Below are positions 2,845 through 44,054 of a stretch of DNA of 44,175 nt, in pieces. The first letter of the stretch is position 1, and the number at the start of each line of letters is the position of its first letter. The position numbers and the translations under genes were made by a program. The notes under the pieces are model-generated. The model did not search any database and was not told where the DNA came from. It saw nothing but the letters and a program-made list of their open reading frames with translations. Source of the stretch: Caldilineaceae bacterium. Its GTDB lineage: Bacteria; Chloroflexota; Anaerolineae; Caldilineales; Caldilineaceae. The stretch covers positions 1-44,175 of the forward strand of contig JAGRCP010000088.1 in assembly GCA_020433455.1 (NCBI GenBank), given 5' to 3'.

Positions 2845-3016
2845 AATGAGTAATGAGTAATGAGTAATGAGTAATGAGTAATGAGAAATACGTAATGCGT
2901 AATGCGTGTCGAGTCCTGAAATATGTTGACACAAACAGTACGCAGTACGTATTACGCAGTACGTATTACGCAGTACGTATTACGCAGTACGTATTACGCA
3001 GTACGTATTACGCAGT
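2845..3016. repeat. Two convergent arrays of 7-bp repeats behind polX
   Basis: Nine 7-bp units (aatgagt drifting to aatgaga, aatacgt, aatgcgt) fill 2845-2907. After a 28-bp centre, five exact copies of the 14-mer cagtacgtattacg (2943-3012, plus partial units at 2936-2942 and 3013-3015) run in the opposite orientation: each is two heptamers, whose complement cgtaata matches the cgtaatg phase of the first array. The pair can therefore fold into a long imperfect hairpin. The array begins about 4 bp past the polX stop codon. Confidence 0.9.
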
Positions 3017-3019
3017 AGC

Positions 3020-28573: not shown

Positions 28574-29836
28574 ATGTCCAATCTCGCAACAGACATCCTC
28601 ATCATCGGCGGCGGTGTCATCGGCGCATGCGGCGCGCTCTACCTGACCCGCGCCGGCCGCGAGGTCACGCTGGTGGAGCGGGGCGAGCTGTGCGGCGAGG
28701 CGTCCCGGGGCAATGCGTGCTGGGTTGCGGCCGGGCACTCCTTGCCCACGGCCGCGCCGGGCGTGCTGGGCCAGGGAATGCGCTGGCTCCTGGATTCGGG
28801 CAGCCCCTTCCACATCAAGCCCCGGCCGAGCCTGGATCTGGCCCGCTGGCTGTGGCGCTTCCGGGCCGCCTGCGCCCAGGAGCAGATGATGGAAAGCGCC
28901 CGCTCGCTGCTGGAGTTGAACCGCACCAGCCTGGCCCTCTTCCGGGAACTGGCGGCCGAACCCGGCCTGGACTTCGGCTTTACGGAAGACGGTGTGCTCC
29001 ACCTGCATCTCTCGGACAAGTACCGCCAGGCGGGCGAGAAGCAGGCAGCGCTCCTGCGCGGCATAGGCGTAGAGGCCCGGTCGCTGGATCGGGCGGGATT
29101 GGAAAAAGTGGAGCCCAATCTCCGGGCGGGGATCGAGTCAGGCATCTTCTATCCCGAGCACGCCCACCTGGACCCGGTGAAGCTGGTTGAGGCCCTTGCG
29201 GCCCAGGCCGAAGCGGAAGGCGCGACAATTCTGACCCGGACCGCGGTCACAGGCTTTGGGCAGGAGAGCGGCCGCATTCGCACCGTCCGCACAGCGCAGG
29301 GAACGTTTGCGCCTCGGGAAGTCGTGCTGGCCGCGGGCGCGTGGTCCTCGCTTTGGGCCAGGGAGCTGGGCGCGCCCATCCTCATGCAGCCGGCCAAGGG
29401 CTACAGCGTGACCGTCAAGCGGCGCACAGCCCAGCAGGGCCCCACCCGCTGCCTGTCGGTGGACGACTACAAGGTCGCGGTGACGCCCCTGGACGCCGCG
29501 CGCTTCCGCTTCAGCAGCACCCTGGAACTGGCGGGTTTTGACCCGAGCATCAATCCCAAACGCCTGCGCGTGAACCGAGACGCGCTGCAAGCCGTCCTGC
29601 CGGACATGGAGTCCCTGGACGCGGAGGAGCCGTGGTCCGGCTACCGCCCCCTGACGCCCGATAGCCTCCCCTATATCGGCCGCAGCGAGCAGATCGGCAA
29701 CCTCATTTTCGCCACCGGGCACGGGATGCTGGGCATCACCCAGGGGCCGATTACGGGCAAGCTGGTGGCCGAGATCGTGACCGGGGATGCGCCGACGGCG
29801 GACCTGAGCCCACTGCGGCCCGAGCGATATGCGTAA
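28574..29836 (+). CDS. FAD-dependent amino-acid dehydrogenase (DadA/DAO family)
   Basis: A 420-aa DAO-family flavoprotein. The N-terminal ADP-binding motif is DILIIGGGVIGACGALYL with VERGELCGEASRGNACWV. The substrate domain includes LEKVEPNLRAGIESGIFYP, VVLAAGAWSSLWARELG and the C-terminal SGYRPLTPDSLPYIGRS plus FATGHGMLGITQGPITG, all close to D-amino acid dehydrogenase DadA. It probably oxidatively deaminates a D-amino acid or related amine. ATG 28574 is preferred to a GTG at 28559 that overlaps the preceding stop. The last 150 bp recur, 95% identical, at 30921-31069 beyond a toxin-antitoxin insert. Confidence 0.92.
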   Translation: MSNLATDILIIGGGVIGACGALYLTRAGREVTLVERGELCGEASRGNACWVAAGHSLPTAAPGVLGQGMRWLLDSGSPFHIKPRPSLDLARWLWRFRAACAQEQMMESARSLLELNRTSLALFRELAAEPGLDFGFTEDGVLHLHLSDKYRQAGEKQAALLRGIGVEARSLDRAGLEKVEPNLRAGIESGIFYPEHAHLDPVKLVEALAAQAEAEGATILTRTAVTGFGQESGRIRTVRTAQGTFAPREVVLAAGAWSSLWARELGAPILMQPAKGYSVTVKRRTAQQGPTRCLSVDDYKVAVTPLDAARFRFSSTLELAGFDPSINPKRLRVNRDALQAVLPDMESLDAEEPWSGYRPLTPDSLPYIGRSEQIGNLIFATGHGMLGITQGPITGKLVAEIVTGDAPTADLSPLRPERYA

Positions 29837-30079: not shown

Positions 30080-30373
30080 ATGCGTGTTATAGCGAAGAAG
30101 ACATTACGAGAATTTTGGGAGCGGCATACAGATGTAAAGCCCCAGCTTCAAGCATGGCTGGAGGACACCGAACGCGCGAAATGGCAAACGCCGAGAGATA
30201 TCCAAGACATCTATGGTGCTGATACAGTATTGCCGGGCAATCGAGCCGTTTTTAATATCAAAGGCAACAATTATCGCCTGGTCGTGGAAATTCATTACAA
30301 CACAGGCATTGCCTATATTCGGTTCATAGGCACACATGCTGAATATGACCGAATTGATGCGCTAACGATTTGA
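30080..30373 (+). CDS. higB: HigB-type toxin (mRNA interferase)
   Basis: A 97-aa RelE-superfamily toxin of the HigB branch, expected to cleave mRNA on the ribosome. VIAKKTLREFWERH at the start, ADTVLPGNRAVFNIKGNNYRL in the middle and AYIRFIGTHAEYDRID at the end are hallmarks of the family. It is complete in length. The toxin precedes the antitoxin, as usual for higBA, with an 8-bp gap. The DNA is visibly more AT-rich than flanking genes, which suggests acquisition by transfer. Confidence 0.93.
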   Translation: MRVIAKKTLREFWERHTDVKPQLQAWLEDTERAKWQTPRDIQDIYGADTVLPGNRAVFNIKGNNYRLVVEIHYNTGIAYIRFIGTHAEYDRIDALTI

Positions 30374-30381
30374 GGACAAAA

Positions 30382-30777
30382 ATGGATATTCGACCGATAA
30401 AAACAGAAACTGATTATGCTGCGGCGCTGGATGAAATTGAAGCATTGATGGACGCCGAACCAAACACACCCGAATGTGACAAACTGGATGTATTGGCAAC
30501 TTTGGTTGAGGCATACGAAGCAGAGCATTACACGATTCCAGCACCCGACCCAATTGATGCGCTGGAGTATTACCTGGAAAGCCGTGATTTGAGCCGAAAA
30601 GATTTGGAGCCGTATATCGGCACCCGAGCCAGGGTGTCTGAAATTCTGAATCGCAAGCGACCACTGACGTTGCCAATGATTCGGCGGCTAGAAGCGGGAA
30701 CACACATACCTGCATCGATTCTCATTCAACCATATGAAACTGAACAGGGTTTTCCACAGAAAGAGATTGCTGCATAG
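30382..30777 (+). CDS. higA: HigA-type antitoxin with helix-turn-helix
   Basis: A 131-aa antitoxin. The N-terminal half (MDIRPIKTETDYAAALDEIE, then LATLVEAYEAEHY) is the typical HigA toxin-binding part. The C-terminal half is an XRE helix-turn-helix: DALEYYLESRDLSRKDLEPYI followed by SEILNRKRPLTLPMIRRL. GAGG six bases before the ATG at 30382 selects this start over a TTG at 30370. It neutralises HigB and probably represses the operon. AT-rich like higB. Confidence 0.92.
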   Translation: MDIRPIKTETDYAAALDEIEALMDAEPNTPECDKLDVLATLVEAYEAEHYTIPAPDPIDALEYYLESRDLSRKDLEPYIGTRARVSEILNRKRPLTLPMIRRLEAGTHIPASILIQPYETEQGFPQKEIAA

Positions 30778-30906: not shown

Positions 30907-31087
30907 CCCCCTACATCGGCGCAGCGAGCAGATCGGCAACCTCATTTTCGCCACCGGGCACGGGATGCTGGGCGTCACCCAGGGGCCGATTACAGGCAAG
31001 CTGGTGGCCGAAATTGTGACGGGGGATGCGCCGACGGCGGACCTGAGCCCGCTGCGGCCCGAGCGGTTTACAAGTCGTGGCGTGTGA
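30907..31087 (+). pseudogene. 3' remnant of a second DadA/DAO-like gene
   Basis: From 30921 to about 31069 the DNA matches the end of the upstream flavoprotein gene (29682-29830) with 8 differences in 149 bp. The preceding dozen bases also match, but one C is deleted (after 30920), which breaks the frame. Counting that stretch, seven of nine substitutions are silent (for example gag/gaa, atc/att, acg/aca), so the two sequences diverged while still under coding constraint. No start or N-terminal part exists. The frame ends ERFTSRGV and stop, unlike ERYA of the intact gene. It is the non-functional tail of a paralogue or of an exchanged allele. Confidence 0.85.
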
Positions 31088-31588: not shown

Positions 31589-31640
31589 TGACTCGTCCTG
31601 AATATAACCCGCGCAATCAATCCCCATTCGGGACGAGTCA
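31589..31640. terminator. Hairpin between convergent genes
   Basis: 15-bp arms (31589-31603 and 31626-31640) pair with one G-T wobble and leave a 22-nt loop. It lies directly after the stop of the BNR protein gene. No T run is present, so termination is inferred from position only. Confidence 0.45.
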
Positions 31641-31642
31641 GA

Positions 31643-32857
31643 TCATTCCCCGTTGATGTTGATCAATTCCCAACTGCCTCCGTCATCGCGTGAGCGGAAG
31701 AGGTAGCAACCCGTCACGCCATCGATCCTCGTCTCGTACACCGCCCAGATTTCCAGCGGGTAGACGTCCAGCCGTACCAAAGGGAGGTAATAGCGGTTTT
31801 CGCCGGGCGATATCGATGCCGGTTCCGGCGGCGAAAAGGGCCCTTGGCGTCGTATCCCCACCGCGTATGTGCGGGGCTTGGGATTCGCCAGACGCGTCAG
31901 CGTTTGGCCGCCGTCCCGCGAAAGATATTTATTGTCGATCAACACCGTCTGGTCGGCTGCATAGTCCGGCGAAAACGCAATCGTGTCCGGCAGAAGGCCT
32001 CTCCCCCACTGAGTGCTCTCATAGAGCAGTTCCCAAGTGACGCCGCCATCGGTACTCTTGATCAAACCGACAATGCTGACCATGAAGATCGTCTGGTCTT
32101 CTCCAAACTGGGGCGAGAGCGCCACGGTATCAGCCTGCAGAGGGGCGGTATCAATGCCGTCCAATCCGGTGGGTTCGTAGCTCCAGGTAGCACCCCAATC
32201 CGTGGTCTTCATCACAAACGGCGCCATTTCGGGAACAGGGCCCGGTGGTAAATACTCACCGACTACGGTTGCCATGGCAATCCCGTCTTCGACAAAGGCC
32301 GGGGAAATGCTGAGCGATTGAACTTCATCTGTATAAGGATAGTTGAGGTACTCCATATCCGCTTCCTGCCAGGTGGCTCCGGCATCTTCAGAGTAGTAGA
32401 TGCCATGTACCGAATAGGTAAAGAGTAGTCTGTCCTGAGCAGGCGTTGCGTAGACACGTCGGGGTCCCGTGTTCACTGTTGCTGGGTCATAGCCGGTGAG
32501 GGTCCAAGTTTCTCCCTTGTCATTTGAGCGATAGATACGCCCTCTCTCCGCATTTGGATCGTCATCCACGATGCTTTGAGATTCGAAGGAGTAAACATAG
32601 AGGTAGATAGCGCCATCAGAGGTAACTTGCACTTGCGGCCATCTTGCATCGCTGGGCCAGCCGTCAGGATAGGGCAACACCTGCCAGCCGTCGTCGTCCA
32701 ATCGATGGAGTGAGTTGTCCCTTATTACCAGGATCATCTCCTGACCAACGTAGAAACCCTCACCATAGCAGTCAATAGGCGTCGCGTTGCTCTGTGCAGA
32801 GACGACATTCGAGCAGAGAGATAGACCCGCCAGAAACAGGATACATAGTCGCAACAC
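31643..32857 (-). CDS. Secreted BNR/Asp-box repeat protein, copy 1
   Basis: A 404-aa predicted exported protein with sialidase-type Asp-box repeats (S-x-D-x-G-x-T-W): SNDKGETW, SEDAGATW, TTDWGATW, STDGGVTW, SRDGGQTL, SRDDGGSW, implying a beta-propeller (BNR/YCF48-like). No catalytic sialidase residues are recognised. LCILFLAGLSLCSNVVSAQ is the signal peptide. YYLPLVRLDVYPLEIWAVY lies near the C-terminus. It is about 90% identical in protein to the gene at 37619. The start is unclear: no in-frame ATG lies near the signal peptide, and GTG at 32857 is the best in-frame choice, while an ATG at 32862 with well-spaced AAGG is out of frame. The start may be damaged. Confidence 0.78.
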   Translation of the reverse strand: MLRLCILFLAGLSLCSNVVSAQSNATPIDCYGEGFYVGQEMILVIRDNSLHRLDDDGWQVLPYPDGWPSDARWPQVQVTSDGAIYLYVYSFESQSIVDDDPNAERGRIYRSNDKGETWTLTGYDPATVNTGPRRVYATPAQDRLLFTYSVHGIYYSEDAGATWQEADMEYLNYPYTDEVQSLSISPAFVEDGIAMATVVGEYLPPGPVPEMAPFVMKTTDWGATWSYEPTGLDGIDTAPLQADTVALSPQFGEDQTIFMVSIVGLIKSTDGGVTWELLYESTQWGRGLLPDTIAFSPDYAADQTVLIDNKYLSRDGGQTLTRLANPKPRTYAVGIRRQGPFSPPEPASISPGENRYYLPLVRLDVYPLEIWAVYETRIDGVTGCYLFRSRDDGGSWELININGE

Positions 32858-32889
32858 AGCATCTATTTTCCTTATCCTCGTAAAGTGCG

Positions 32890-33046
32890 CTAACGACCGA
32901 CAAAGGGAAAGAAATCCCAAAATGTTGGGGGCCGGGTCGTGGAGTCAAAACCATAAACGCTCACCGTACCGCCGTCTGCATTGGCCGTGTAAACGTAGCC
33001 GCGCTCCTCATCTACCAGCATATTCATGGCGCCGAAACCGAAGCTA
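32890..33046 (-). pseudogene. 3' remnant of a second beta-propeller gene
   Basis: Directly behind the stop of the propeller gene, the minus strand encodes about 48 residues, including MLVDEERGYVYTANADGG, FWDFFPFVGR and a TAG stop. They match the last 50 residues of that upstream protein (IAVDEERGYIYMTLAD, FNFFPL). No start or remaining propeller blades exist. It is the tail of a tandem paralogue removed by deletion. Confidence 0.8.
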
Positions 33047-34291
33047 TCAATCTATCTCCTTCCCGGCATGTTTTATCAAGGGAAAGAAGTTGAACCAGGG
33101 TGACGTTTCTGGTTCCTCAAAGCTAAAGACGGCGACTGCGTGTGAATCGGCAAGCGTCATATAGATGTATCCTCGTTCTTCATCCACGGCGATATCCCAT
33201 GCACCCCAGAGGCCTGTAGAAATTGTTGTGATAACTTCCGTGCCCCGAATGACGGTCAAATCACCGCTGTAATAGCCGCCGACATAAACGTATCCGTGGG
33301 TTTCGTCAATGGCCACAGGCTTCGGACTGCCGGGTATGCTGATATCAGTAATAACCTCTGTACCGCTGATGACCATAACGCCGTTTTTAACACCGTCATG
33401 GCTCATATAAAGTAAATTCGTATGTGGGTCGATCTCCATGTCGTCGTCCCCAAAACCGCTGGGGACGATAACCAGGTCGCTCTGACGATTCCAAAACGCC
33501 AACTGAGTATGCCAACCCAGATACATGCTGCCGTCATTGGGATTGACAACGATGTCTCGAACGGAGCCGAACCATATGTCGTCGCCAAGGAAGGTATTGG
33601 TAACCACCTCCAACCCATCGATAATACCCAACATGCCTATGGGTTCTTGGTTTTCATATGGACTGCCCGTAAATTGGCCGACGTAGATGCGTCCATCCAC
33701 CGGGTTGTACTCCAAATGTGTCGGGATGTATCCAGCCACCAGGTCCGTGATGATTTCCGTACCGCTGATGACGGTTACATGGCTGGGCAGTCGTTGATTT
33801 TCCGGCCATTCTCGCTGATGTGCGCTGGCCACATAAACGAGACCTGTTTCCGGATGAGCGGTGATGTCTTGCGGAGTATGTCCAACGTCGGGAATCGATG
33901 CAATCACCTCCGTGCCGCTGATTACGTGGACAATGCCGTCCCATTCTGTCCAGTAGACTGCACCCGAAAGGGGAGATGCCGCCAGAGCGCCTATGGTAAA
34001 ATCCGGCTGCTGGTCCGACCCTGGGCGGGAAACGACCGCCACCGTTTCAGGACCATCAAGGACCAGCATCTCTCCTGTATCGGCTGCTACATAGGCCAAG
34101 CCATTGGGGTGGACCAAGATTTCATCTGGATAACCCCAATGGCGCGGATCAGTGATAAGCGCTTGAAGCCGCGGCAAGCTGTCATCAGCCGCTGTCACAG
34201 GCTGACAAGCAGCAAGCGTGCTCGTCAGAAGCCCGAAGAGGCAAACCGAAATCAACAACGGAATTACGACAGTTTTCCTGATATGGGCCAT
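33047..34291 (-). CDS. YVTN-type beta-propeller lipoprotein
   Basis: A 414-aa predicted surface lipoprotein. The signal peptide PLLISVCLFGLLTSTLAAC ends in a lipobox with Cys29. The rest is a beta-propeller with repeated ISGTEVI strands and blades such as LVYVASAH, RIYVGQFTG, GYVYVGGYYSG and GYIYMTLAD. Proteins of this fold usually mediate binding; no catalytic residues are seen. AGAGGA five bases before the ATG supports the start. It lies between the glycoside-hydrolase-like gene and BNR copy 1; the second unit of the array has no equivalent. Confidence 0.87.
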   Translation of the reverse strand: MAHIRKTVVIPLLISVCLFGLLTSTLAACQPVTAADDSLPRLQALITDPRHWGYPDEILVHPNGLAYVAADTGEMLVLDGPETVAVVSRPGSDQQPDFTIGALAASPLSGAVYWTEWDGIVHVISGTEVIASIPDVGHTPQDITAHPETGLVYVASAHQREWPENQRLPSHVTVISGTEIITDLVAGYIPTHLEYNPVDGRIYVGQFTGSPYENQEPIGMLGIIDGLEVVTNTFLGDDIWFGSVRDIVVNPNDGSMYLGWHTQLAFWNRQSDLVIVPSGFGDDDMEIDPHTNLLYMSHDGVKNGVMVISGTEVITDISIPGSPKPVAIDETHGYVYVGGYYSGDLTVIRGTEVITTISTGLWGAWDIAVDEERGYIYMTLADSHAVAVFSFEEPETSPWFNFFPLIKHAGKEID

Positions 34292-34341
34292 ACGAGTCCT
34301 CTCGTCCAGTCCGCACTTGAATCGTTATCTATCAGAGAACA

Positions 34342-34396
34342 CCGTTCCGGGATGGATGGGTCCATCCTATTTATATCCATCCCGGACCCGGAACGG
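34342..34396 (-). repeat. Strong intergenic hairpin upstream of the propeller gene
   Basis: The left arm 34342-34357 pairs with 34375-34383 and 34390-34396, giving 16 bp with a 6-nt bulge on one side. It lies between the hydrolase-like gene and the propeller gene and may process or partly terminate the transcript. Confidence 0.6.
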
Positions 34397-34420
34397 CGTC
34401 TGCAACATCTGCCCTATCTC

Positions 34421-37177
34421 CTACTGGCTGCTTGCAGCAGCGTCGCTTTCCATGGCGGCAGGCAGATAGACATGCTTGTTCAGGTCGTCGAGGGTCGGCA
34501 GGTCGTTTGGCCACGAACCGGCGCAATTGATGTCCGCATTGGGCCAGTTCGTGAACGCATCCTGCACCGGCTTCTTCTTGGCATCCTCCGGTTCATTGGT
34601 GTGGATGTTGCCTCGATAGAGGCCGAACGACCAGGGGATTCTCACGATATTGGCTCCGCTGGCGCGCACCTGATATTGGCCGAAGTCCGATGCCGTCCAT
34701 GAAGGCGAGGGAACACGTTCCAATGCTGTTGCATTGGCGACATTGCCGCACTCTTCCTCGGAGACCTCGACGCCCGTGTCATGATAGGTGAACCAGAAGA
34801 CTTTGGAGACATTCGGAGACAGATTGTAGAGGCTGTGGAAGCCTCGTTGCAGATAGCAGGCCTGAACATCTTCCGTGGTTACAAGATCCACGTAGTTCTG
34901 GCATTGCATAGATCCTTCTGCGCTGTTCCACCCCACCTCTGTGGCCCAGATCGGTTTGCCCTGTTCGTCAGGCTGGAACGATGCGCTATCGAGAACGATC
35001 CGGAATTTCTTCACAATGGTATCCGGTCGATGCTCGATATCGCCGCGCATGTAGTAGGCCGGATCCAGTTCAGCACGTTTGCCGTTGCGCCCTGGATATT
35101 CTTCCGTGAAGTATGGGTGCAATGCAAAGATGTCGAACGGTTTGGGGTAGTGCAGTGACGCCAGCGAGGCAGCAAAGTACCTCGAAGCTGTACGGTTGGC
35201 GCCTACCAACCCTGTGTACAGCACCTTGTCATTGGCATCGACGGTATTCAACACGGCTGACGATGATGTCAACAGAGAAGCATATTCTTCAGGACGAAGT
35301 CCGCTTTTGTAGTAGTCTGGCTCATTCCAGATCTCCCAGGCGCCGATGCGGTCATCGTAGTAGCGGGCTAGCTGTTCCACAACATCCACAAAGTCCGGAA
35401 GGTATCCATTTGTGGTGACATTGCCCTGTCCGAGGCCGCTGGGATCATACCAATCTTGGCGAACCAGCGAAGCATTATCAATCAAGCCTAGGATGGCAAT
35501 GTCATTGTTGGGATCGTCGTCACTATTGAGCGCACAAATGCTATCCACAAAAAGATCATAGTGGCGCAGATCGATGTGGTTGTCGCCATCAGTATTGAGC
35601 GGGTCGAGCGTGCCCCCTTCACCTGTCGCGAAGTAGCTTGGATTCACCTTGAATTCCATGCGCACCCAGTTGACGCCCGAATCGGTCAGACGGTCGATCA
35701 TCTGGTCGAATTTGGCCAGATCACCGTGTTGAAGGTCCTCGGTATACGGCCCGATATTCAGCCCTTTGCTCAACCCGGACGTATATGTCGGATCGGCGTT
35801 CTGACAATTGGCGCTACTTTGCGGCTTTTCATAGATTGAGACGGCGAGATCGTCCAGCCACGGCCCTCTTGCGGTGTTGTTGCGATTGTCACTGGCGAAT
35901 CTCCACTTGACCCAGATTGCATTGCCATTGTCGACAATATCCGGATAGTAGATATGGTAGGCTCGCCAATCCTGGAAGACGACGCCATCGGTGCTGCCGC
36001 GCCATTCCAGCCCGCCTTGGTAGTCCAGGTTCTCACCGTTTCCGTCGCCTGTACCGCTGAAGAACTGCACGGACAGGCTGTCGCCATTATCGGCCAATTC
36101 GTACCACATCTGAAATTCAGCCAGCACATTCTTGGCGTTGCCCACATCTGACAGACGGCAGATCACGGATGTGATCATATCCGTGGGATAGGTGCTGCCG
36201 GGCGGCAACGGTTGTGTGCCCGGAGACGCGTCGTCATTGACCGCGCCGGCTGGCCACAGCGCCTGTGCTCCGCTGGTTGAGCGGTCGCTTGCCGTCCCCC
36301 AGATGTGACTTTGGCCGCCGCCAGCGCGTTGGGTTAATTGCCAAGCGCAGTCACCTGTCGTGTTGGGGAAGCCGCTCTCGAAGTCTTCCATATCCTCCAC
36401 ATGCCAATTGTCAATCGCTTGCACGGCAGTCTGTGGAACGAGCGCCAGCAGTCCAGGTTTTCTGTAATGCGATGAGGTCGAGACGGCCATACTCTCTACG
36501 ACAACTTCATCACCGACATCGACATTGACCAATGGAACCGGCAAGCCAAGACGCCAACGCTCTTCTTTCTCCGCTTCGCTCATCTCGACTTCGAACATGC
36601 TGGGACTGAGGACATAGACTTCCGTATCCGAAATCGTTTCTATTGGCACAACAGTCGGCGTCGGCGTGGGCAGCGGACTTTCCGGCGTGGCGGTAGGCGT
36701 CGGCGTAGGCGACCAGTCGCAGCCTGACCCGTCAAAGATCACCGTGAAGGTCGTCTTGTTCTTGCCCGCCTTCATCTGCACCTGAATCGGTTCACTCGGG
36801 TCGAAGCTGCTTACCGTCATGACGAAGATATCCTCCGCGCCTTGACTGAAGCCGTCGAACTCGGTCTCATATTTGATGCTTGCAAAGCCGGGATTGCCGT
36901 GCTCATTGGTCCACTCCACATGGTAATCGCCCAGCCCGCCGGGAATGACCCCATCGTCGGCGGGCGCGACGGGCGTCCAGCCGCCTGTGCCGAAGGCAAC
37001 GTAGCTGATGTCCTGCTTATTCGCGTTGGTGACGCGCCAGGTGAGGGCTGTCGTGCCGTCCGGCTGGGTCACATAGCCGAAAAGCGCAAGGGTGAAGCCG
37101 TCCAGGGTTTGATTGAAACAGGCCGTTTCCGGTTCGGGTAAAGGGGATTGAAGACGAAGGGCTGCCTGCAAGCGCAC
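34421..37177 (-). CDS. Large secreted glycoside-hydrolase-like protein, copy A (signal peptide cut off by a stop)
   Basis: The main frame encodes 918 aa. Order: a 130-residue N-terminal module of unknown function bounded by Cys (ETACFNQTLDGFTLALFGY to FDGSGCD), a Thr-Pro linker, a jelly-roll-like region (VEDMEDFESGFP to WLDDLAVSIYEK, about 265-455), then a clan-A hydrolase-like barrel with acid/base candidate in IWNEPD and nucleophile candidate in IWATEVGW, ending VYLPAAMES. The first usable start in this frame is GTG at 37177, which leaves no signal peptide. In frame just upstream lie a TAA and then an intact signal peptide with ATG and Shine-Dalgarno (37178-37255), so the original gene ran to 37255. 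The whole 2.8-kb frame is otherwise open. Confidence 0.82.
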   Translation of the reverse strand: MRLQAALRLQSPLPEPETACFNQTLDGFTLALFGYVTQPDGTTALTWRVTNANKQDISYVAFGTGGWTPVAPADDGVIPGGLGDYHVEWTNEHGNPGFASIKYETEFDGFSQGAEDIFVMTVSSFDPSEPIQVQMKAGKNKTTFTVIFDGSGCDWSPTPTPTATPESPLPTPTPTVVPIETISDTEVYVLSPSMFEVEMSEAEKEERWRLGLPVPLVNVDVGDEVVVESMAVSTSSHYRKPGLLALVPQTAVQAIDNWHVEDMEDFESGFPNTTGDCAWQLTQRAGGGQSHIWGTASDRSTSGAQALWPAGAVNDDASPGTQPLPPGSTYPTDMITSVICRLSDVGNAKNVLAEFQMWYELADNGDSLSVQFFSGTGDGNGENLDYQGGLEWRGSTDGVVFQDWRAYHIYYPDIVDNGNAIWVKWRFASDNRNNTARGPWLDDLAVSIYEKPQSSANCQNADPTYTSGLSKGLNIGPYTEDLQHGDLAKFDQMIDRLTDSGVNWVRMEFKVNPSYFATGEGGTLDPLNTDGDNHIDLRHYDLFVDSICALNSDDDPNNDIAILGLIDNASLVRQDWYDPSGLGQGNVTTNGYLPDFVDVVEQLARYYDDRIGAWEIWNEPDYYKSGLRPEEYASLLTSSSAVLNTVDANDKVLYTGLVGANRTASRYFAASLASLHYPKPFDIFALHPYFTEEYPGRNGKRAELDPAYYMRGDIEHRPDTIVKKFRIVLDSASFQPDEQGKPIWATEVGWNSAEGSMQCQNYVDLVTTEDVQACYLQRGFHSLYNLSPNVSKVFWFTYHDTGVEVSEEECGNVANATALERVPSPSWTASDFGQYQVRASGANIVRIPWSFGLYRGNIHTNEPEDAKKKPVQDAFTNWPNADINCAGSWPNDLPTLDDLNKHVYLPAAMESDAAASSQ

Positions 37178-37255
37178 TTACAGCAGCGCCGCGAGGACAA
37201 ACAGGGCCGTGCCTGCCAGGACCAGGCTTATACGATGCTCGCGCGCAGTTTTCAT
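37178..37255 (-). pseudogene. Detached signal peptide of copy A (in-frame TAA)
   Basis: ATG at 37255, with AGGAG six bases upstream, starts MKTAREHRISLVLAGTALFV and continues to LAALL, then TAA at 37178-37180. Copy B has CAA (Gln) at the same place in an otherwise matching sequence, so one C-to-T change would create this stop. Translation from here gives only 25 residues. Confidence 0.85.
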
Positions 37256-37311
37256 CATTGTCTCCTGATGGGGAAGGGGGAAATCCATTGTCGGGACGGT
37301 GAACCATTCGG

Positions 37312-37348
37312 CCAAAACAAAACACCCGCAGCCTTATGGCAGCGGGTG
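37312..37348 (-). terminator. Hairpin with T run in front of copy A
   Basis: Minus strand: an 11-position stem (37323-37333 with 37338-37348, one A-A mismatch), 4-nt loop, then TTTTGTTTT. It sits 270 bp after BNR copy 2 and about 57 bp before the copy A start. It can terminate BNR copy 2 or act as an attenuator in the copy A leader. Confidence 0.65.
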
Positions 37349-37390
37349 CAGGAAAAGAATGGTGCGGCGTCAGGGGTTGCTGCCATCGTC

Positions 37391-37419
37391 ATATGCTATT
37401 GTCAGGTACAATAGCATAT
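37391..37419. promoter_or_regulatory. 12-bp perfect inverted repeat upstream of copy A
   Basis: atatgctattgt (37391-37402), a 5-nt spacer, then its exact complement (37408-37419). On the minus strand a TTGACA box (37433-37438) lies 13 bp upstream. It could be an operator at the promoter. The equivalent in copy B (41396-41424) has three mismatches. Confidence 0.45.
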
Positions 37420-37618
37420 CGCCGCCCCCCCGTGTCAAGGGCAGCGAGCAATTTATTGCAATTTTGTAAGGAGATTTGTATTGGTCAACGACATATTGGA
37501 ATGAAAAAAGACGGCGAATCGCAACTATATCCAATGGTTGTCGGGTGAGAACCGCTTTTTTCAGATTTCACCATCTCGTTAACCAATACACAATCATCCC
37601 TGTTTAGGGCGGTTCGGA

Positions 37619-38842
37619 TCATTCCCCATTAATATTGATCAATTCCCAACTGTCTCCAGAATCACGCGAGCGGAAGAGATAGCAGCCCGTCACGCCATCG
37701 ATCCTCGTCTCGTACACCGCCCAGATTTCCAGCGGATAGACGTCCAGTCGTACCAAAGGAAGGTAATAGCGGTTCTCGCCGGGCGCTATCGATGCCGGTT
37801 CCGGCGGCGCGAAGGGGCCCTGGCGTCGTATCCCCACCGCGTATGTGCGAGGCTTGGGATTCGCCAGACGCGTCAGCGTTTGGCCGCCGTCCCGTGAAAG
37901 ATATTTATTGTCGATCAATACCGTCTGATCGACTGCATAGTCCGGCGAAAACGCAATCGTTTCCGACAGATAGCTCCGCGCCCACCGAGTGCTTTCATAG
38001 AGCATTTCCCAAGTGACGCCGCCATCGACGCTCTTGATCAAGCCGACAATGCTGACCATAAAGACCGTCTGGTCCTCTCCATACTGGGGCGAGAGCGCCA
38101 CGGTATCAGCCTGCAGAGGGACGGTATCAATGCCGTCCAATCCGGTGGGTTCGTAGCTCCAGGTAGCACCCCAGTCCGTGGTTTTCATTACAAACGGCGC
38201 CATTTCGGGAACAGGGCCCGGTGGTAAATACTCACCAACTACGGTTGCCATGGCAATCCCGTCTTCGACAAAGGCCGGAGAAATGCTGAGCGATTGGACA
38301 ACATTCCTATCATAAGGATAGCCGAGATACTCCATCTCCGCTTTCTGCCAGGTGGCTCCGGCATCTTCAGAATAGTAGATGCCATAACCATCAACGGTAA
38401 AAAGCAACCTATCCTGAACAGGTGTTGCGTAGATACGTCGAGGTCCCGTATTCACTGTTGCCGGGTCATAGCCGGTGAGGGTCCAAGTTTCTCCCTTGTT
38501 ATTTGAGCGATAGATACGTCCTCCCTCCGCATTTGGATCGTCATCCACGACGCTTTGAGATTCGAAGGAGTAAATATAGAGGTAGATAGCGCCATCAGAG
38601 GTAACTTGCACTTGCGGCCATCTTGCATCGCTGGGCCAGTCGTCAGGATAGGGCAACACCTGCCAACCGTTATCGTCAAACCGATAGAGCAAGTTGTCCG
38701 CTATTACCAGGACCATCTCCTGACCAAAGTAGGGATGCGCATAGCAGTCAACAAGCGTATTGCTGCTCTGGGCACGGATTATATTCGGGCAAAGGCATAG
38801 CCCTGCTAGGAACAGGCTGCAAAATATTAAAACAGATCTCAT
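37619..38842 (-). CDS. Secreted BNR/Asp-box repeat protein, copy 2
   Basis: A 407-aa exported protein, about 90% identical to the product of 31643-32857, with the same Asp-box series (SNNKGETW, SEDAGATW, TTDWGATW, SVDGGVTW, SRDGGQTL, SRDSGDSW) and the same C-terminal YYLPLVRLDVYPLEIWAVY. The signal peptide SVLIFCSLFLAGLCLC is intact. AGGAGG lies just before two ATG codons (38845 and 38842); the second has the better spacing. It probably forms a propeller at the cell surface; ligand unknown. It lies between the two hydrolase-like genes and may be co-transcribed with copy B. Confidence 0.87.
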   Translation of the reverse strand: MRSVLIFCSLFLAGLCLCPNIIRAQSSNTLVDCYAHPYFGQEMVLVIADNLLYRFDDNGWQVLPYPDDWPSDARWPQVQVTSDGAIYLYIYSFESQSVVDDDPNAEGGRIYRSNNKGETWTLTGYDPATVNTGPRRIYATPVQDRLLFTVDGYGIYYSEDAGATWQKAEMEYLGYPYDRNVVQSLSISPAFVEDGIAMATVVGEYLPPGPVPEMAPFVMKTTDWGATWSYEPTGLDGIDTVPLQADTVALSPQYGEDQTVFMVSIVGLIKSVDGGVTWEMLYESTRWARSYLSETIAFSPDYAVDQTVLIDNKYLSRDGGQTLTRLANPKPRTYAVGIRRQGPFAPPEPASIAPGENRYYLPLVRLDVYPLEIWAVYETRIDGVTGCYLFRSRDSGDSWELININGE

Positions 38843-38884
38843 CATACCTCCTTTTGCCGTCAAATCTGACAGGCTGACCGGATA

Positions 38885-38929
38885 ACAAGGGGACAAGATG
38901 ACCTATGAATCCTCATCTTGTCCCCTTGT
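38885..38929. repeat. 17-bp perfect inverted repeat between copy B and BNR copy 2
   Basis: The arms 38885-38901 and 38913-38929 are exact complements around an 11-nt loop. There is no T run. It is 75 bp after the copy B stop and 43 bp before the BNR copy 2 start. Confidence 0.75.
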
Positions 38930-39003
38930 CAGTCATGGCGATTCCCTCGTTGGCAGGTCAAGGTTCCTCCCGGCAGACCGCATGACAGGCTATGCCGTAC
39001 TCT

Positions 39004-39585
39004 CTACTGACCGCTGCTCACACTGAACTCGGACCAACGCTCACCGATGGCTGTGGGCCGGCCGTCACTACCCCGTATATCGAGTAGATATTGGCTCCGG
39101 TCCCGACTGAAGGCTCCAAAGATGACATGGGTCGTATACCATGCATAGGCTTCATAGTGCGAATCCACGGGCGAATTACCTTCCCCGCTCAGCGAAAGCA
39201 GCCAGGGATCCATGAAGTTATCCGCGATCCACTCCGGATTGTTCCAGCTCCAGTCAAGCGGAAACGGCATCGACGTGACAGCGACCCTCTCTCCGTTCTC
39301 GTCGAGATATGAAGAGTTTAGCCAATACCAGCCCGTCTCGGAAATCCAGATCGGCTTTGGCTCATGGTTCAAATCCCATATCTCCAAGCCGACATGCATA
39401 TCCTCATACCAACTATTGGCTGCCTCCGCCATGGCATTAATTTCAGTCGCAGCGCAATCTTTCAGCGCGTTGCAAGCGACTGCATCGTAGGCATCAGTGC
39501 CTTCAGCGCAAGGCTTCAGAAGCCTGCAAGCATCTGAACTTGAAGCGGTCTCCTCGTCCATCGCCCTGGAGCAATCCTCGACCCA
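39004..39585 (-). pseudogene. C-terminal part of hydrolase-like copy B, behind an in-frame stop
   Basis: Continues the frame of the next entry after the TAA at 39586-39588. It starts WVEDCSRAMDEETASSSDAC; an internal ATG lies at 39561. It contains the barrel's second catalytic candidate, Glu in KPIWISETGWYWLN, matching IWATEVGW of copy A. Without this part the N-terminal fragment lacks its nucleophile. No frameshift is needed to join the two parts, only replacement of the single stop. Confidence 0.8.
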
Positions 39586-41259
39586 TTAACCATTCACACA
39601 TGTGTTTGAATTCGATGTACTATGAAATGGATAGAGATGAAGGTGCACGCCGTCGATCTTGTCGAGGTAGTTTTCGGTACGCTCCACGCCTCCCTGGTAT
39701 AGAACCCGGGTGCTCTTGAGTGTATTGATGAATATGATCCACCAGGAACGCGTGATCTGTTCATCGGGTTGAGGATCATCGGGATCAGCCGGTGAGCTGA
39801 GGAAGACCGGGCCGCCGATAAAGAGTCTGGCAGAGGGATCGTTTTCCTTGATGGCGTCAATGACATTATTGATGTAATAGGCAGTAATGTCCGGATTCAG
39901 TTGGACAGTCCCCGTATATGTCTCTGTGATAGTCTCCCCAGGATTTTCCGGATCCTCCACTTCTATCGTGCCCTCGACCGGGGCGTCTCCACAGCCGCCA
40001 AGGTCCGGCTCGTTGAGTACGAACCAAACGCGCCCTCGGAGACCGTGTTCATAGTCACGCCGTGCCACATCAGCTACAGTATTGCGGATAGGAGTTTCAC
40101 CGGTGCCAAGATGTTGCGCGTCCAGCGTACACCATATCATACGCACATAGGGCGGCGGGGATGCGGAATCGCCCACATCCAGCTCATCCCACTGCCAATA
40201 GGCCGGCGCATCCACAGGAACCGCCGTCGACGGCGTCGAGTTGACCAATTCGCTCTCATTACCGAAGTAACGCTGGTTATTGGTATACGCGAACGAGTCT
40301 CCGTGAGTGAATAGCCAGTTATAATGCCAATCAAAATCAAGGGAGTCCAGATTCATGCCATATTGGTTATCCAAAACGCCATTCACCTGGTTATATGGAA
40401 CATCTGTCAGATTATTCAACTGTATTATATCCCAATTCTGCCAGGCGTCACCGATGCCGACGGGACCATATGTGATCTGGATGCCGGGAACGAAGATAAT
40501 CGGGAGATAGAGCTGTTGCGCTATTGACGTCATCATCGGCTCTGCCACAGCGGCGCTGGTCACCGCTGCAACCAACGGCGGTGGATCCAGGTAGGTACGA
40601 TCCAGCGGGATTGTCACCTCGGCAGCCGATGCCAGGCCAGAGGACTCCATCAGTTCATAGGTCGTCATTTCGCCGGGCAGTTCCGGCGGGGGCAACGGGC
40701 TCTCCGGTGCAGGCGACCGGTCGCAGCCCGGACCGTCAAACATCACGCTGAAGGTCGTCCGGTTTTGCCCTGCCTTCATCTGCACCTGAATCGGTTCACT
40801 CGGGTCGAAGCTGCTTACCGTCATGGCAAAGATATCCTCCGCGCCTTGACTGAAGCCGTCGAACTCGGCCGCGTACTTGATAGACGCAAAGCCGGGATTG
40901 CCGTGCTCGTTGGTCCACTCCACACGGTAATCGCCCAGCGCGCCGGGAATGACCACATCGTCGGCGGGCGCGACGGGCGTCCAGCCGCCTGTGCCGAAGG
41001 CAACGTAGCTGATGTCCTTCTTGTTCACGTTGGTGACGCGCCAGGTGAGGGTGGTTGTGCCGTCCGGCTGGGTCACATAGCCGAAAAGCGCAAGGGTGAA
41101 GCCGTCCAGGGTTTGATTGAAACAGGCCGTTTCCGGTTCGGGTAAAGGGGATTGAAGACGAAAGGCTGCCTGCAAGCGCACTTGCAGCAGCGCCGCGAGG
41201 ACAAACAGGGCCGTGCCTGCCAAGGCCAGGCTTATACGACGTTCGCGCGAAGGTTTCAT
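39586..41259 (-). CDS. Large secreted glycoside-hydrolase-like protein, copy B (N-terminal part)
   Basis: A 557-aa open part. MKPSRERRISLALAGTALFV is the signal peptide (ATG 41259, AGGAG six bases upstream). The N-terminal module (ETACFNQTLDGFTL to FDGPGCD) is nearly identical to copy A. After a short Pro-rich linker the sequence is unlike copy A: no jelly-roll region, then a hydrolase-like barrel with WFVLNEPDLGG as acid/base candidate and LFIGGPVFLSSP. The frame stops at TAA (39586) after NTCVNG, and the same frame carries on for 194 more codons. The intact gene would encode about 751 residues. Confidence 0.82.
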   Translation of the reverse strand: MKPSRERRISLALAGTALFVLAALLQVRLQAAFRLQSPLPEPETACFNQTLDGFTLALFGYVTQPDGTTTLTWRVTNVNKKDISYVAFGTGGWTPVAPADDVVIPGALGDYRVEWTNEHGNPGFASIKYAAEFDGFSQGAEDIFAMTVSSFDPSEPIQVQMKAGQNRTTFSVMFDGPGCDRSPAPESPLPPPELPGEMTTYELMESSGLASAAEVTIPLDRTYLDPPPLVAAVTSAAVAEPMMTSIAQQLYLPIIFVPGIQITYGPVGIGDAWQNWDIIQLNNLTDVPYNQVNGVLDNQYGMNLDSLDFDWHYNWLFTHGDSFAYTNNQRYFGNESELVNSTPSTAVPVDAPAYWQWDELDVGDSASPPPYVRMIWCTLDAQHLGTGETPIRNTVADVARRDYEHGLRGRVWFVLNEPDLGGCGDAPVEGTIEVEDPENPGETITETYTGTVQLNPDITAYYINNVIDAIKENDPSARLFIGGPVFLSSPADPDDPQPDEQITRSWWIIFINTLKSTRVLYQGGVERTENYLDKIDGVHLHLYPFHSTSNSNTCVNG

Positions 41260-41473
41260 CATTGTCTCCTGATGGTGAAGGGGGAAATCCAATGTCGGGA
41301 CGGTGAACCATTCGGCTAAAACAAAACACCCACAGCCTTATGGCCGCGGGTGCAGGAAAAGAATGGTGCGGCGTCAGGGGTTGCTGCCATCGTCATATTC
41401 TGTTGTCAGGTACAGTAGCATATCCCCCCCGTGTCAAGGGCGGCGAGCAATTTATTGCAATTTTGTAAGGAGA
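40690..41473 (-). repeat. Duplicated cassette, copy B
   Basis: Partner of 36669-37474. The 5' boundary is the same gtaaggaga; downstream it ends in the Pro-rich linker, which in copy B lacks about 15-20 bp. It carries CAA at the codon that is TAA in copy A. Confidence 0.85.
41314..41352 (-). terminator. Decayed leader hairpin with T run in front of copy B
   Basis: Same element as 37312-37348, but the stem has two A-C mismatches. No minus-strand gene is seen upstream of it, so here it can only be a leader element or a duplicated relic. Confidence 0.45.
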
Positions 41474-42686: not shown

Positions 42687-42802
42687 GTAGGGACCGGCCT
42701 CCGTGCCGGTCCGCCGCACCGGCAACCGGATCGCCCGGTCTTGTCGCGGGTAAAAAAATCGTCGCGGCACGAAGGCGGGAGGGCACGGAGGCCGGTCCCT
42801 AC
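42687..42802. repeat. 21-bp perfect inverted repeat around a 74-bp core
   Basis: The arms 42687-42707 and 42782-42802 are exact complements, beginning gtagggaccggcc. The inner sequence has further short GC-rich palindromes. The arm sequence is the same ggaccggc/gccggtcc palindrome found in each following 74-bp unit. It resembles dispersed REP-like elements. Confidence 0.8.
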
Positions 42803-42815
42803 TACGGACACGCGC

Positions 42816-43037
42816 ATGACACAACCATTCGACCTGCTCGGCGTAACGGACCGGCACGGGGGCCGGTCCCTACTATTACGGATACGCGCATGACACAATC
42901 ATTCGACCTCCTCGGCGTGACGGACCGGCACGGGGGCCGGTCCCTACTATTACGGATACGCGCACGACACAATCATTCGACCTCCTCGGCGTAACGGACC
43001 GGCACGGGGGCCGGTCCCTACTATTACGGATACGCGC
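42816..43037 (+). repeat. Three 74-bp tandem repeats carrying the iolC start
   Basis: Units begin at 42816, 42890 and 42964, each exactly 74 bp, and the true iolC start at 43038 is the next in phase. Each unit opens with the first eight codons of iolC (M-T-Q-S/P-F-D-L-L) and then holds an 8-bp-stem palindrome ggaccggc/gccggtcc. Unit 1 encodes a 25-residue peptide whose TGA overlaps the next ATG (ATGA). In unit 3 the ATG has become ACG, which also destroys the stop of the unit 2 peptide; that frame then ends at TAA 42992-42994. Confidence 0.92.
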
Positions 43038-44054
43038 ATGACACAATCATTCGACCTGCTCAGCATGGGCCGCTCCAGCATCGATCTCTATGCCAACGAT
43101 GTGGGCGTACCCTTTGTGGACATCAAGAGCTTTGCCGCCTATGTGGGCGGCTGTCCCACCAATGTGGCGGTAGGCGGCCGGCGGCTGGGCTTGCGCACGG
43201 CCCTGCTCACCGCGGTGGGGGAAGACAAAGTCGGCGACTTTATCCTCCATTTTCTGGACGAAGAGGACGTAACGACTGACTTTATCCCCCGCAAGCCGGG
43301 CCGACGCACCAGCGCGGTGGTGCTGGGCATCGAGGGGCCGGAAACCTTTCCCCTCACCTACTACCGGGACAACTGCGCGGACAACGCGCTCGACATGGAC
43401 GATGTTCGGGCCGCGCCCGTGGCCACAAGCCGGGTTCTCCTCATCAGCGGCACCGGCCTGAGCCAGGAGCCCAGCCGCAGCGCCACGCTCTACGCGGCCG
43501 AAACCGCGCAAGCCGCGGGCGCGACCGTGGTCCTGGACCTGGACTTCCGCCCCGACCAGTGGCCCGATCCCCGGGCCTATGCCGTCAACGTGCGTCTGGC
43601 CCTGCGCCTCACGGACGTGGTGCTGGGCACGGATGACGAAATCAACGCGGCCCTGCTCAGCGACGCCGATCAAATCGAACTCACCCACTCCCAAATTTCC
43701 GACGCGCGGGTGGCAGGCGATGTGGAGCAGGCCATCCATGCGCTCATGGAGCTGGGGCCGGGGGTGTTGCTGCGGAAGCGGGGGCCCGACGGAGCAAGCG
43801 TCTATGAACGCGGCCTGGACGAGACCATCCTGCGCACGGACGTGTCCGGCTTCCCGGTAGACGTATACAACATTCTGGGTGCGGGCGACGCCTTTGCCGC
43901 GGGCGCAATCTACGGCTACGTCCAAGGCTGGGATTGGCCCCGGGCCGCCCGCCTGGCCAACGCCTGCGGGGCCATCGTCGTCACCAAGCACGGTTGCGCC
44001 AACTTTACGCCGACCCTGGAAGAGGTAGAGGCGTTTGTGGCCGAGCGGGGTTGA
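43038..44054 (+). CDS. iolC: 5-dehydro-2-deoxygluconokinase IolC
   Basis: PfkB/ribokinase-family kinase that phosphorylates 2-deoxy-5-keto-D-gluconate with ATP, the step after IolB. MTQSFDLLSMGRSSIDLYAN, YVGGCPTNVAVGGRRLGL and the C-terminal ATP/anion-hole motif LGAGDAFAAGAI are all present; DGASVYERG and LDLDFRPDQW also fit IolC. At 338 aa it is full length. The start is the last of four phased copies of the same 5' end; the codons after LL (AGC ATG GGC) diverge from the repeats, which confirms 43038 as the real start. No Shine-Dalgarno is visible in front of it. Confidence 0.95.
   Translation: MTQSFDLLSMGRSSIDLYANDVGVPFVDIKSFAAYVGGCPTNVAVGGRRLGLRTALLTAVGEDKVGDFILHFLDEEDVTTDFIPRKPGRRTSAVVLGIEGPETFPLTYYRDNCADNALDMDDVRAAPVATSRVLLISGTGLSQEPSRSATLYAAETAQAAGATVVLDLDFRPDQWPDPRAYAVNVRLALRLTDVVLGTDDEINAALLSDADQIELTHSQISDARVAGDVEQAIHALMELGPGVLLRKRGPDGASVYERGLDETILRTDVSGFPVDVYNILGAGDAFAAGAIYGYVQGWDWPRAARLANACGAIVVTKHGCANFTPTLEEVEAFVAERG

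Follow-up and report, generated by a model that had tools for sequence, protein, structure and literature searches.

Simple-sequence phase variation is known mainly in host-associated bacteria, where it is explained by immune escape. At porA, fetA and tp0126, a poly-G/C tract between the −35 and −10 hexamers sets transcription through their spacing, with an optimum near 17 nt (PMC7864442, PMC5320596), and gonococcal porA retains its tract without an intact coding region (PMC5320596). Among open-licence papers, we found none linking simple-sequence phase variation to Anaerolineae or Chloroflexota. Here we analyze a 44,175-nt stretch of DNA from a Caldilineaceae bacterium (Chloroflexota, Anaerolineae; GenBank assembly GCA_020433455.1, contig JAGRCP010000088.1, positions 1–44,175; hereafter, the window), in which two genes for secreted proteins, A and B, share a 5′ cassette with a G run inside a promoter-like element. 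With moderate confidence, the best reading of this pair and of a dispersed family in the same genome would be that a recombining 5′ cassette undergoes simple-sequence phase variation.

The proposed mechanism has four parts. Genes A and B would belong to a dispersed family of secreted envelope or glycan proteins built on one recombining cassette, composed of a poly-G-spacer promoter, leader, signal peptide, immunoglobulin (Ig)-like module and SPLP/TP linker. By changing length through slippage, the G run would alter the −35/−10 distance and give stochastic on/off transcription. Recombination inside the cassette would both homogenize its copies and set it before different catalytic or binding bodies. 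Within the window, one tandem duplication would have left A with the ancestral PslG-like body and B with an unrelated glycoside hydrolase (GH)-like body. The genes of the array are the following:

39004–41262, minus strand: gene B, with signal peptide, Ig-like module, Pro linker and GH-like domain B (NEP and ETGW motifs), interrupted; ATG at 41262.
37619–38896, minus strand: BNR/Asp-box secreted protein, copy B (Pfam BNR and Sortilin-Vps10), duplicate of copy A.
34421–37258, minus strand: gene A, with signal peptide, Ig-like module, Pro linker and PslG-like GH; ATG at 37258; phmmer match to PslG; homologue in a relative (G010/L089).
33047–34291, minus strand: secreted YncE-like β-propeller, partner of gene A (weak NCBIfam propeller matches; 34% identical gene in G010).
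31643–32920, minus strand: BNR/Asp-box secreted protein, copy A (Pfam BNR and Sortilin-Vps10), duplicate of copy B.

Self-BLAST of the window returned exactly two duplicated blocks in region 31643–41473: a 5′ block (36701–37474 versus 40705–41473; 775 columns, 92.9% identity, E = 0) and a BNR block (31614–32840 versus 37591–38816; 1230 columns, 88.9% identity, E = 0). Read along the minus strand, the array begins with cassette B, GH body B and BNR B and continues with cassette A, GH body A, the propeller and BNR A; the stretches between the duplicated blocks are dissimilar in both DNA and protein. An earlier sequence-only reading had described two hydrolase-like genes with nearly the same 5′ cassette of about 800 bp and different downstream parts. 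The 775-bp block bears this out: BLASTP alignment of the two proteins is confined to residues 1–154, and the similarity ends in the Pro-rich linker, as that reading had it. A near-identical BNR protein behind each hydrolase was also proposed; the position is right, with the propeller between in A, but near-identity begins only at about residue 80 (4-fold sites 53% identical before and 88% after; p = 9e-4). The shared 5′ block starts about 210 nt 5′ of the ATG and takes in the promoter-like element and leader, not coding sequence alone. Its features are as follows:

41452–41468, minus strand: upstream box TTACAAAATTGCAATAA of cassette B; no exact copies in the genome beyond A, B and the C146 poly-G promoter.
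41415–41438, minus strand: promoter-like element B, TTGACA – C(G)7A – TATGCT, spacer 9 (pattern search and spacer count; putative promoter).
41326–41353, minus strand: terminator-like hairpin of leader B (12 bp plus T-run; z −2.26; stem also in A and C6), possible attenuator.
37453–37469, minus strand: upstream box TTACAAAATTGCAATAA of cassette A (exact copy search).
37413–37439, minus strand: promoter-like element A, TTGACA – C(G)7CGGCGA – TATGCT, spacer 14, G tract interrupted (pattern search; putative promoter).
37323–37348, minus strand: terminator-like hairpin of leader A (hairpin scan and stem comparison with B and C6).

Each of the family's seven leaders (A, B, C6, C17, C161, C172 and C108) carries TTGMC(A/G), a poly-G run and TATGNT, with hexamers assigned by eye and by pattern as sequence matches only. 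The G runs measure 7 in A, 7 in B, 13 in C6, 10 in C17, 9 in C161, 10 in C172 and 7 in C108; these differences (7–13 G) lie between paralogues of one assembled genome, and assembly homopolymer lengths may be off by one. When the four type-2 leaders are aligned, CTTGCCAAAnAnGG(G)nTATGnTACACTGGT is the best-conserved stretch and the G run is their chief difference. A search for CTTGNC..G7..TAY returned 8 distinct sites in the genome, namely the seven leaders and C146, versus 1 for the pattern reversed as a control; across the 45 remaining genomes of the order it gave 24 hits versus 29 controls, or about 0.5 per relative. The double-module gene C109 has no poly-G element upstream. Assembled spacers are 14 nt in A and 9 nt in B, the seven leaders together having 9, 14, 14, 15, 15, 15 and 20 nt, and C146 17 nt. 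We infer that the elements are promoters whose tracts vary within the population. The hairpin of A, B and C6, sited between promoter and ATG, could in addition attenuate transcription; an Rfam scan of the leader found no element, its sole window match being a tRNA elsewhere.

Two further sites were seen. At C146 (L076, C146:27078), TTGACA–polyG11–ATACTG has upstream of it the same TTACAAAATTGCAATAA box as in A and B, 220 bp from a contig end, with the driven gene off the contig. In G020, a relative from another genus (L136, G020:C67:68772), TTGACA–AAAAAC(G)8A–TATGAT stands 5′ of a lipoprotein gene with a Pro-rich linker.

Long tracts are scarce in this organism and fall in particular places. 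Pattern searches over the 5.25-Mb genome counted 17 G runs of at least 9 and 26 of exactly 8. All four runs of at least 11, and 8 of 10 runs of at least 10, are either a promoter-like spacer or the exact frame-break point of a long open reading frame (ORF): C6, C17, C172 and C146 make up the spacers, and C51, C61, C116 and C115 the frame breaks. The remaining two lie in C143, in frame within the gene for a secreted FG-GAP-like protein, and in C172, between genes. A long ORF that stays open behind an out-of-frame tract is the usual genomic sign of contingency genes. Tracts near the 5′ end of an open but out-of-frame ORF occur in C51, C61 and C116. In the first two, C13 (L074, C51:34604) and C10 (L078, C61:1109) lie a few codons past the ATG of paralogous trypsin-like secreted proteins, out of frame, with 443 and 419 codons open, respectively; in the third, which encodes a large CBM9 protein, G12 (L075, C116:61848) falls where the signal peptide ends, and the main ORF (>900 codons) is out of frame with that peptide. 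C10 in C115 (L079, C115:47163) splits what looks like a NarL/LuxR-like two-part response regulator into two frames, with the tract in the receiver-like part, and this gene could be a phase-variable regulator; neither its halves nor the joined frame has a Pfam match, the receiver-like call coming from reading the sequence and the helix-turn-helix-like C-terminus from inspection by eye.

The Ig-like module occupies two positions in the window:

40720–41133, minus strand: Ig-like β-sandwich module, copy B (sequence search; AlphaFold model with Ig-like fold).
36716–37129, minus strand: Ig-like module, copy A (sequence search).

An AlphaFold model built from 15 sequences is an Ig-like β-sandwich with a predicted local distance difference test score (pLDDT) of 94.9. 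The module has no Pfam family match, and profile search of the PDB returned designed Ig proteins and weak matches only. Fold search placed it in the general Ig-like class; its best hit was YcnI (DUF1775; 7mek, Z 10.9, 3.0 Å over 110 residues, 11% identity), apart from which no family stood out. The module may anchor or display the protein. It occurs in 8 copies in 7 genes of the genome (A, B, C17, C172, C161, C6 and C109) and in 5 of 46 genomes of the order, so the reservation of the sequence-only reading that it might occur nowhere else falls away.

Its partners in the genome are a PslG-like GH, GH-like domain B, PD40 propellers, a small orphan domain and a C92-type peptidase; thus, the same cassette is placed before at least five kinds of effector body. 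C17 and C172 each join the module to a PD40 propeller and are followed by a SpoIID-like gene, C161 and C6 join it to the small orphan domain and are followed by an M23 peptidase, and C109 has two tandem modules with the C92-type peptidase, then propeller-like lipoproteins. C108 carries the leader, signal peptide, linker and C161-type domain without the module. Cassette homology among the dispersed copies begins about 180–195 nt 5′ of the ATG. Module fusions in relatives comprise a PD40 propeller with a downstream SpoIID-like gene (G012 and G004), the gene A body (GH_A; G010 and G005) and two large repeat proteins (G004).

Silent sites provide evidence of the history of the cassette. Between C17 and C172, signal peptide and module have a silent-site divergence (dS) of 0.65, whereas the homologous propellers are saturated (dS ~3.3), as are the downstream SpoIID-like genes; 4-fold identity is 64% in the cassette versus 37% in the body (p = 4e-4), dropping at about codon 250. 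The cassette being far younger than the bodies, it has been exchanged or homogenized independently of them in this pair, which supports cassette reshuffling. C161 has its cassette at a similar distance to C17 and C172 and an unrelated body. In the window pair, cassette (93% 4-fold identity) and BNR body (88%) are indistinguishable in age (p = 0.37); one duplication time therefore suffices there, and the pattern fits a single duplication after which the middle would have been replaced.

The bodies of A and B are glycosidase-like by their motifs, with glycans or cell wall as putative targets. GH_A matches PslG with an E value of 5e-7 over 86 residues around WEIWNEPD (PslG residues 125–213, part of the barrel); a PIWATEVGW motif was recognized by eye, and Pfam gave no match. 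Its homologue in the related metagenome-assembled genome contig JAPLGZ010000901.1 (G010/L089) is 50% identical, with the same module and architecture, and adjoins the 34% identical propeller gene, but on the opposite side relative to the window; G005 has a further, more distant module–GH_A protein. The recurrence of module and GH_A in these relatives, next to a propeller gene in G010, marks module, GH_A and propeller as the older association. The gene B body (GH_B) shows VLNEPD and PIWISETGW by eye; it has no Pfam, NCBIfam or credible PDB match, searches of 61 relatives and of 400 genomes of the phylum gave no homologue, and its single-sequence AlphaFold model (pLDDT 32) is worthless. Lacking a detectable homologue there, GH_B would be the newcomer.

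Several observations weigh against phase variation of a recombining cassette. None of the seven leaders has a 17-nt spacer (C146 alone does), their range being 9–20 nt, and TATGCT agrees with TATAAT at just 4 of 6 positions. A generic promoter scan omits the poly-G sites, whose spacing falls outside 16–18. The eight sites are mostly homologous to one another and not independent, and are therefore counted as one recurrent cassette rather than eight inventions. Module genes of G004, G005, G010 and G012 have no G7 run upstream, and the G7 tracts of the window do not exceed the usual slippage threshold. Finally, the silent-site gap between cassette and body is significant in C17/C172 only, that of C161/C108 being insignificant (p = 0.78) like that of the window pair.

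The alternative that survives best, quite possible though short of even, is that both window genes are dead, left over from a surface locus that is losing its function, so that regulatory meaning has gone here. Each gene has a nonsense codon:

39586–39588, minus strand: in-frame TAA in gene B, in the middle of the GH-like domain (reading frame).
37178–37180, minus strand: in-frame TAA in gene A, at the end of the signal peptide (CAA in B; sequence comparison).

Gene B is one frame broken by this single TAA. Neither copy is therefore an intact secreted protein as assembled. That the organism reads TAA as an amino acid was rejected, the other family genes being without in-frame stops. Interrupted or short G7 tracts and the poor spacers of 14 and 9 nt point the same way, and both copies look decayed or locked. 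Yet in gene A 918 codons stay open past the stop; with 50% identity to the G010 homologue, decay would be recent. Death of these two genes is compatible with phase variation of the cassette, since the other family members are intact, and A and B are probably worn family members, with non-optimal spacers, a G7 tract (interrupted in A) and a stop codon each.

Less likely, and in our view doubtful, are ordinary multidomain paralogues, in which signal peptide and Ig-like module would be a common N-terminal unit in the genus, the window would owe its layout to one tandem duplication and one fusion, and poly-G would be incidental and inherited, without a switching role. Equal silent divergence of cassette and BNR body in A and B fits one event, the poly-G leaders are mutually homologous, relatives carry module genes without poly-G, and both window copies are broken. 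This account does not sit well with runs of at least 9 G that are so scarce (17 in 5.25 Mb) and yet recur at one position, as 7–13 G between conserved hexamers. Nor does it cover unrelated genes of the same genome that are frame-broken exactly at tracts, with ORFs of 419 to >900 codons open, or the same element before a lipoprotein gene in another genus.

Programmed domain swapping, with effector domains exchanged by recombination behind a constant export/anchor module from silent donor cassettes, is very improbable: the placing of one cassette before five or more kinds of body, a cassette younger than the body in C17/C172 and a 775-bp direct repeat that could recombine, deleting 4.0 kb, are in its favor, but no promoterless donor cassettes were found (each module hit lies in an ORF that has a start of its own), neither a recombinase nor a recognition site was noticed beside the cassettes, though no systematic search for them was made, the dispersed copies (dS ~0.5–0.8) are far too old for an active switch, and only the front end is shared, which counts against it because recombination would alter the promoter too. 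Of the effector swap proposed by the sequence-only reading, the recurrence of the module with different bodies and the younger cassette stand, while silent domain cassettes and a programmed swapping machine find no support. The switching signature would instead be the poly-G tracts in the shared promoter, that is, phase-variable expression rather than domain switching.

Other repeats were observed in the window. At 2845–3017, a 7-bp repeat AATGAGT and a perfect 14-bp repeat TACGCAGTACGTAT (5.6 copies) lie just 5′ of a small lipoprotein gene and are possible variable repeats. A 74-bp tandem repeat (42782–43061, 3.8 copies) separates a sugar-catabolism gene from a PfkB-type kinase gene, each unit repeating the start-like ATGACACAATCATTCGACCT of the kinase. 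A 159-bp direct repeat (29668–29826 and 30908–31065, 95%) flanks an HTH_3/HigA-like gene (30370–30777); its first copy is the end of a flavin adenine dinucleotide (FAD) oxidoreductase gene, which suggests insertion with a duplicated target.

Beyond the window, we tentatively propose, as a possibility rather than an expectation, a phasome in this environmental Chloroflexota bacterium, made up of transcriptional and translational poly-G/C contingency loci. A transferable cassette that combines a slippery promoter and leader with a signal peptide and an Ig-like display module would spread by recombination and give random on/off expression to any envelope- or glycan-targeted domain behind it. If this is true, pressures besides immune escape, such as phages, predators and biofilm or floc membership, would select random surface switching, and a cassette that combines switch and export/display module would be a simple route for new proteins into the phase-variable repertoire.

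Comparison with known systems places the individual parts. The Ig-like module resembles YcnI (DUF1775) and other Ig-like β-sandwich domains in its sandwich but differs from YcnI at 11% identity, so that the likeness is of fold class only. Gene A shares with PslG, the GH39-like endoglycosidase of Pseudomonas aeruginosa (PDB 4zn2/5bx9), the match at residues 125–213 and the NEP and E-G-W type motifs; the match is with part of the barrel only, and gene A has an N-terminal Ig-like module and an intermediate region of about 300 residues that PslG lacks. Promoterless, start-less donors as in pilE/vlsE-type silent-cassette gene conversion were not found: every module hit in the genome lies in an ORF with its own start, and nearly all have the promoter element. 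With the Neisseria opa and Treponema pallidum tpr families, the cassette family has in common dispersed paralogues with shared ends, independent contingency tracts and signs of recombination among copies, whereas the bodies here are enzyme or binding domains with no relationship to one another, instead of versions of a single antigen. Gonococcal porA, which has kept its tract but not an intact coding region, is a close parallel to the window copies. The nearest likeness is to Neisseria porA/fetA and T. pallidum tp0126: here, too, a G run lies between TTGACA-like and TATNNT-like hexamers before surface or secreted genes, with a length that differs among copies. What sets the present family apart is that one cassette of promoter, leader, signal peptide and module is repeated before many bodies, in an environmental member of the Chloroflexota.

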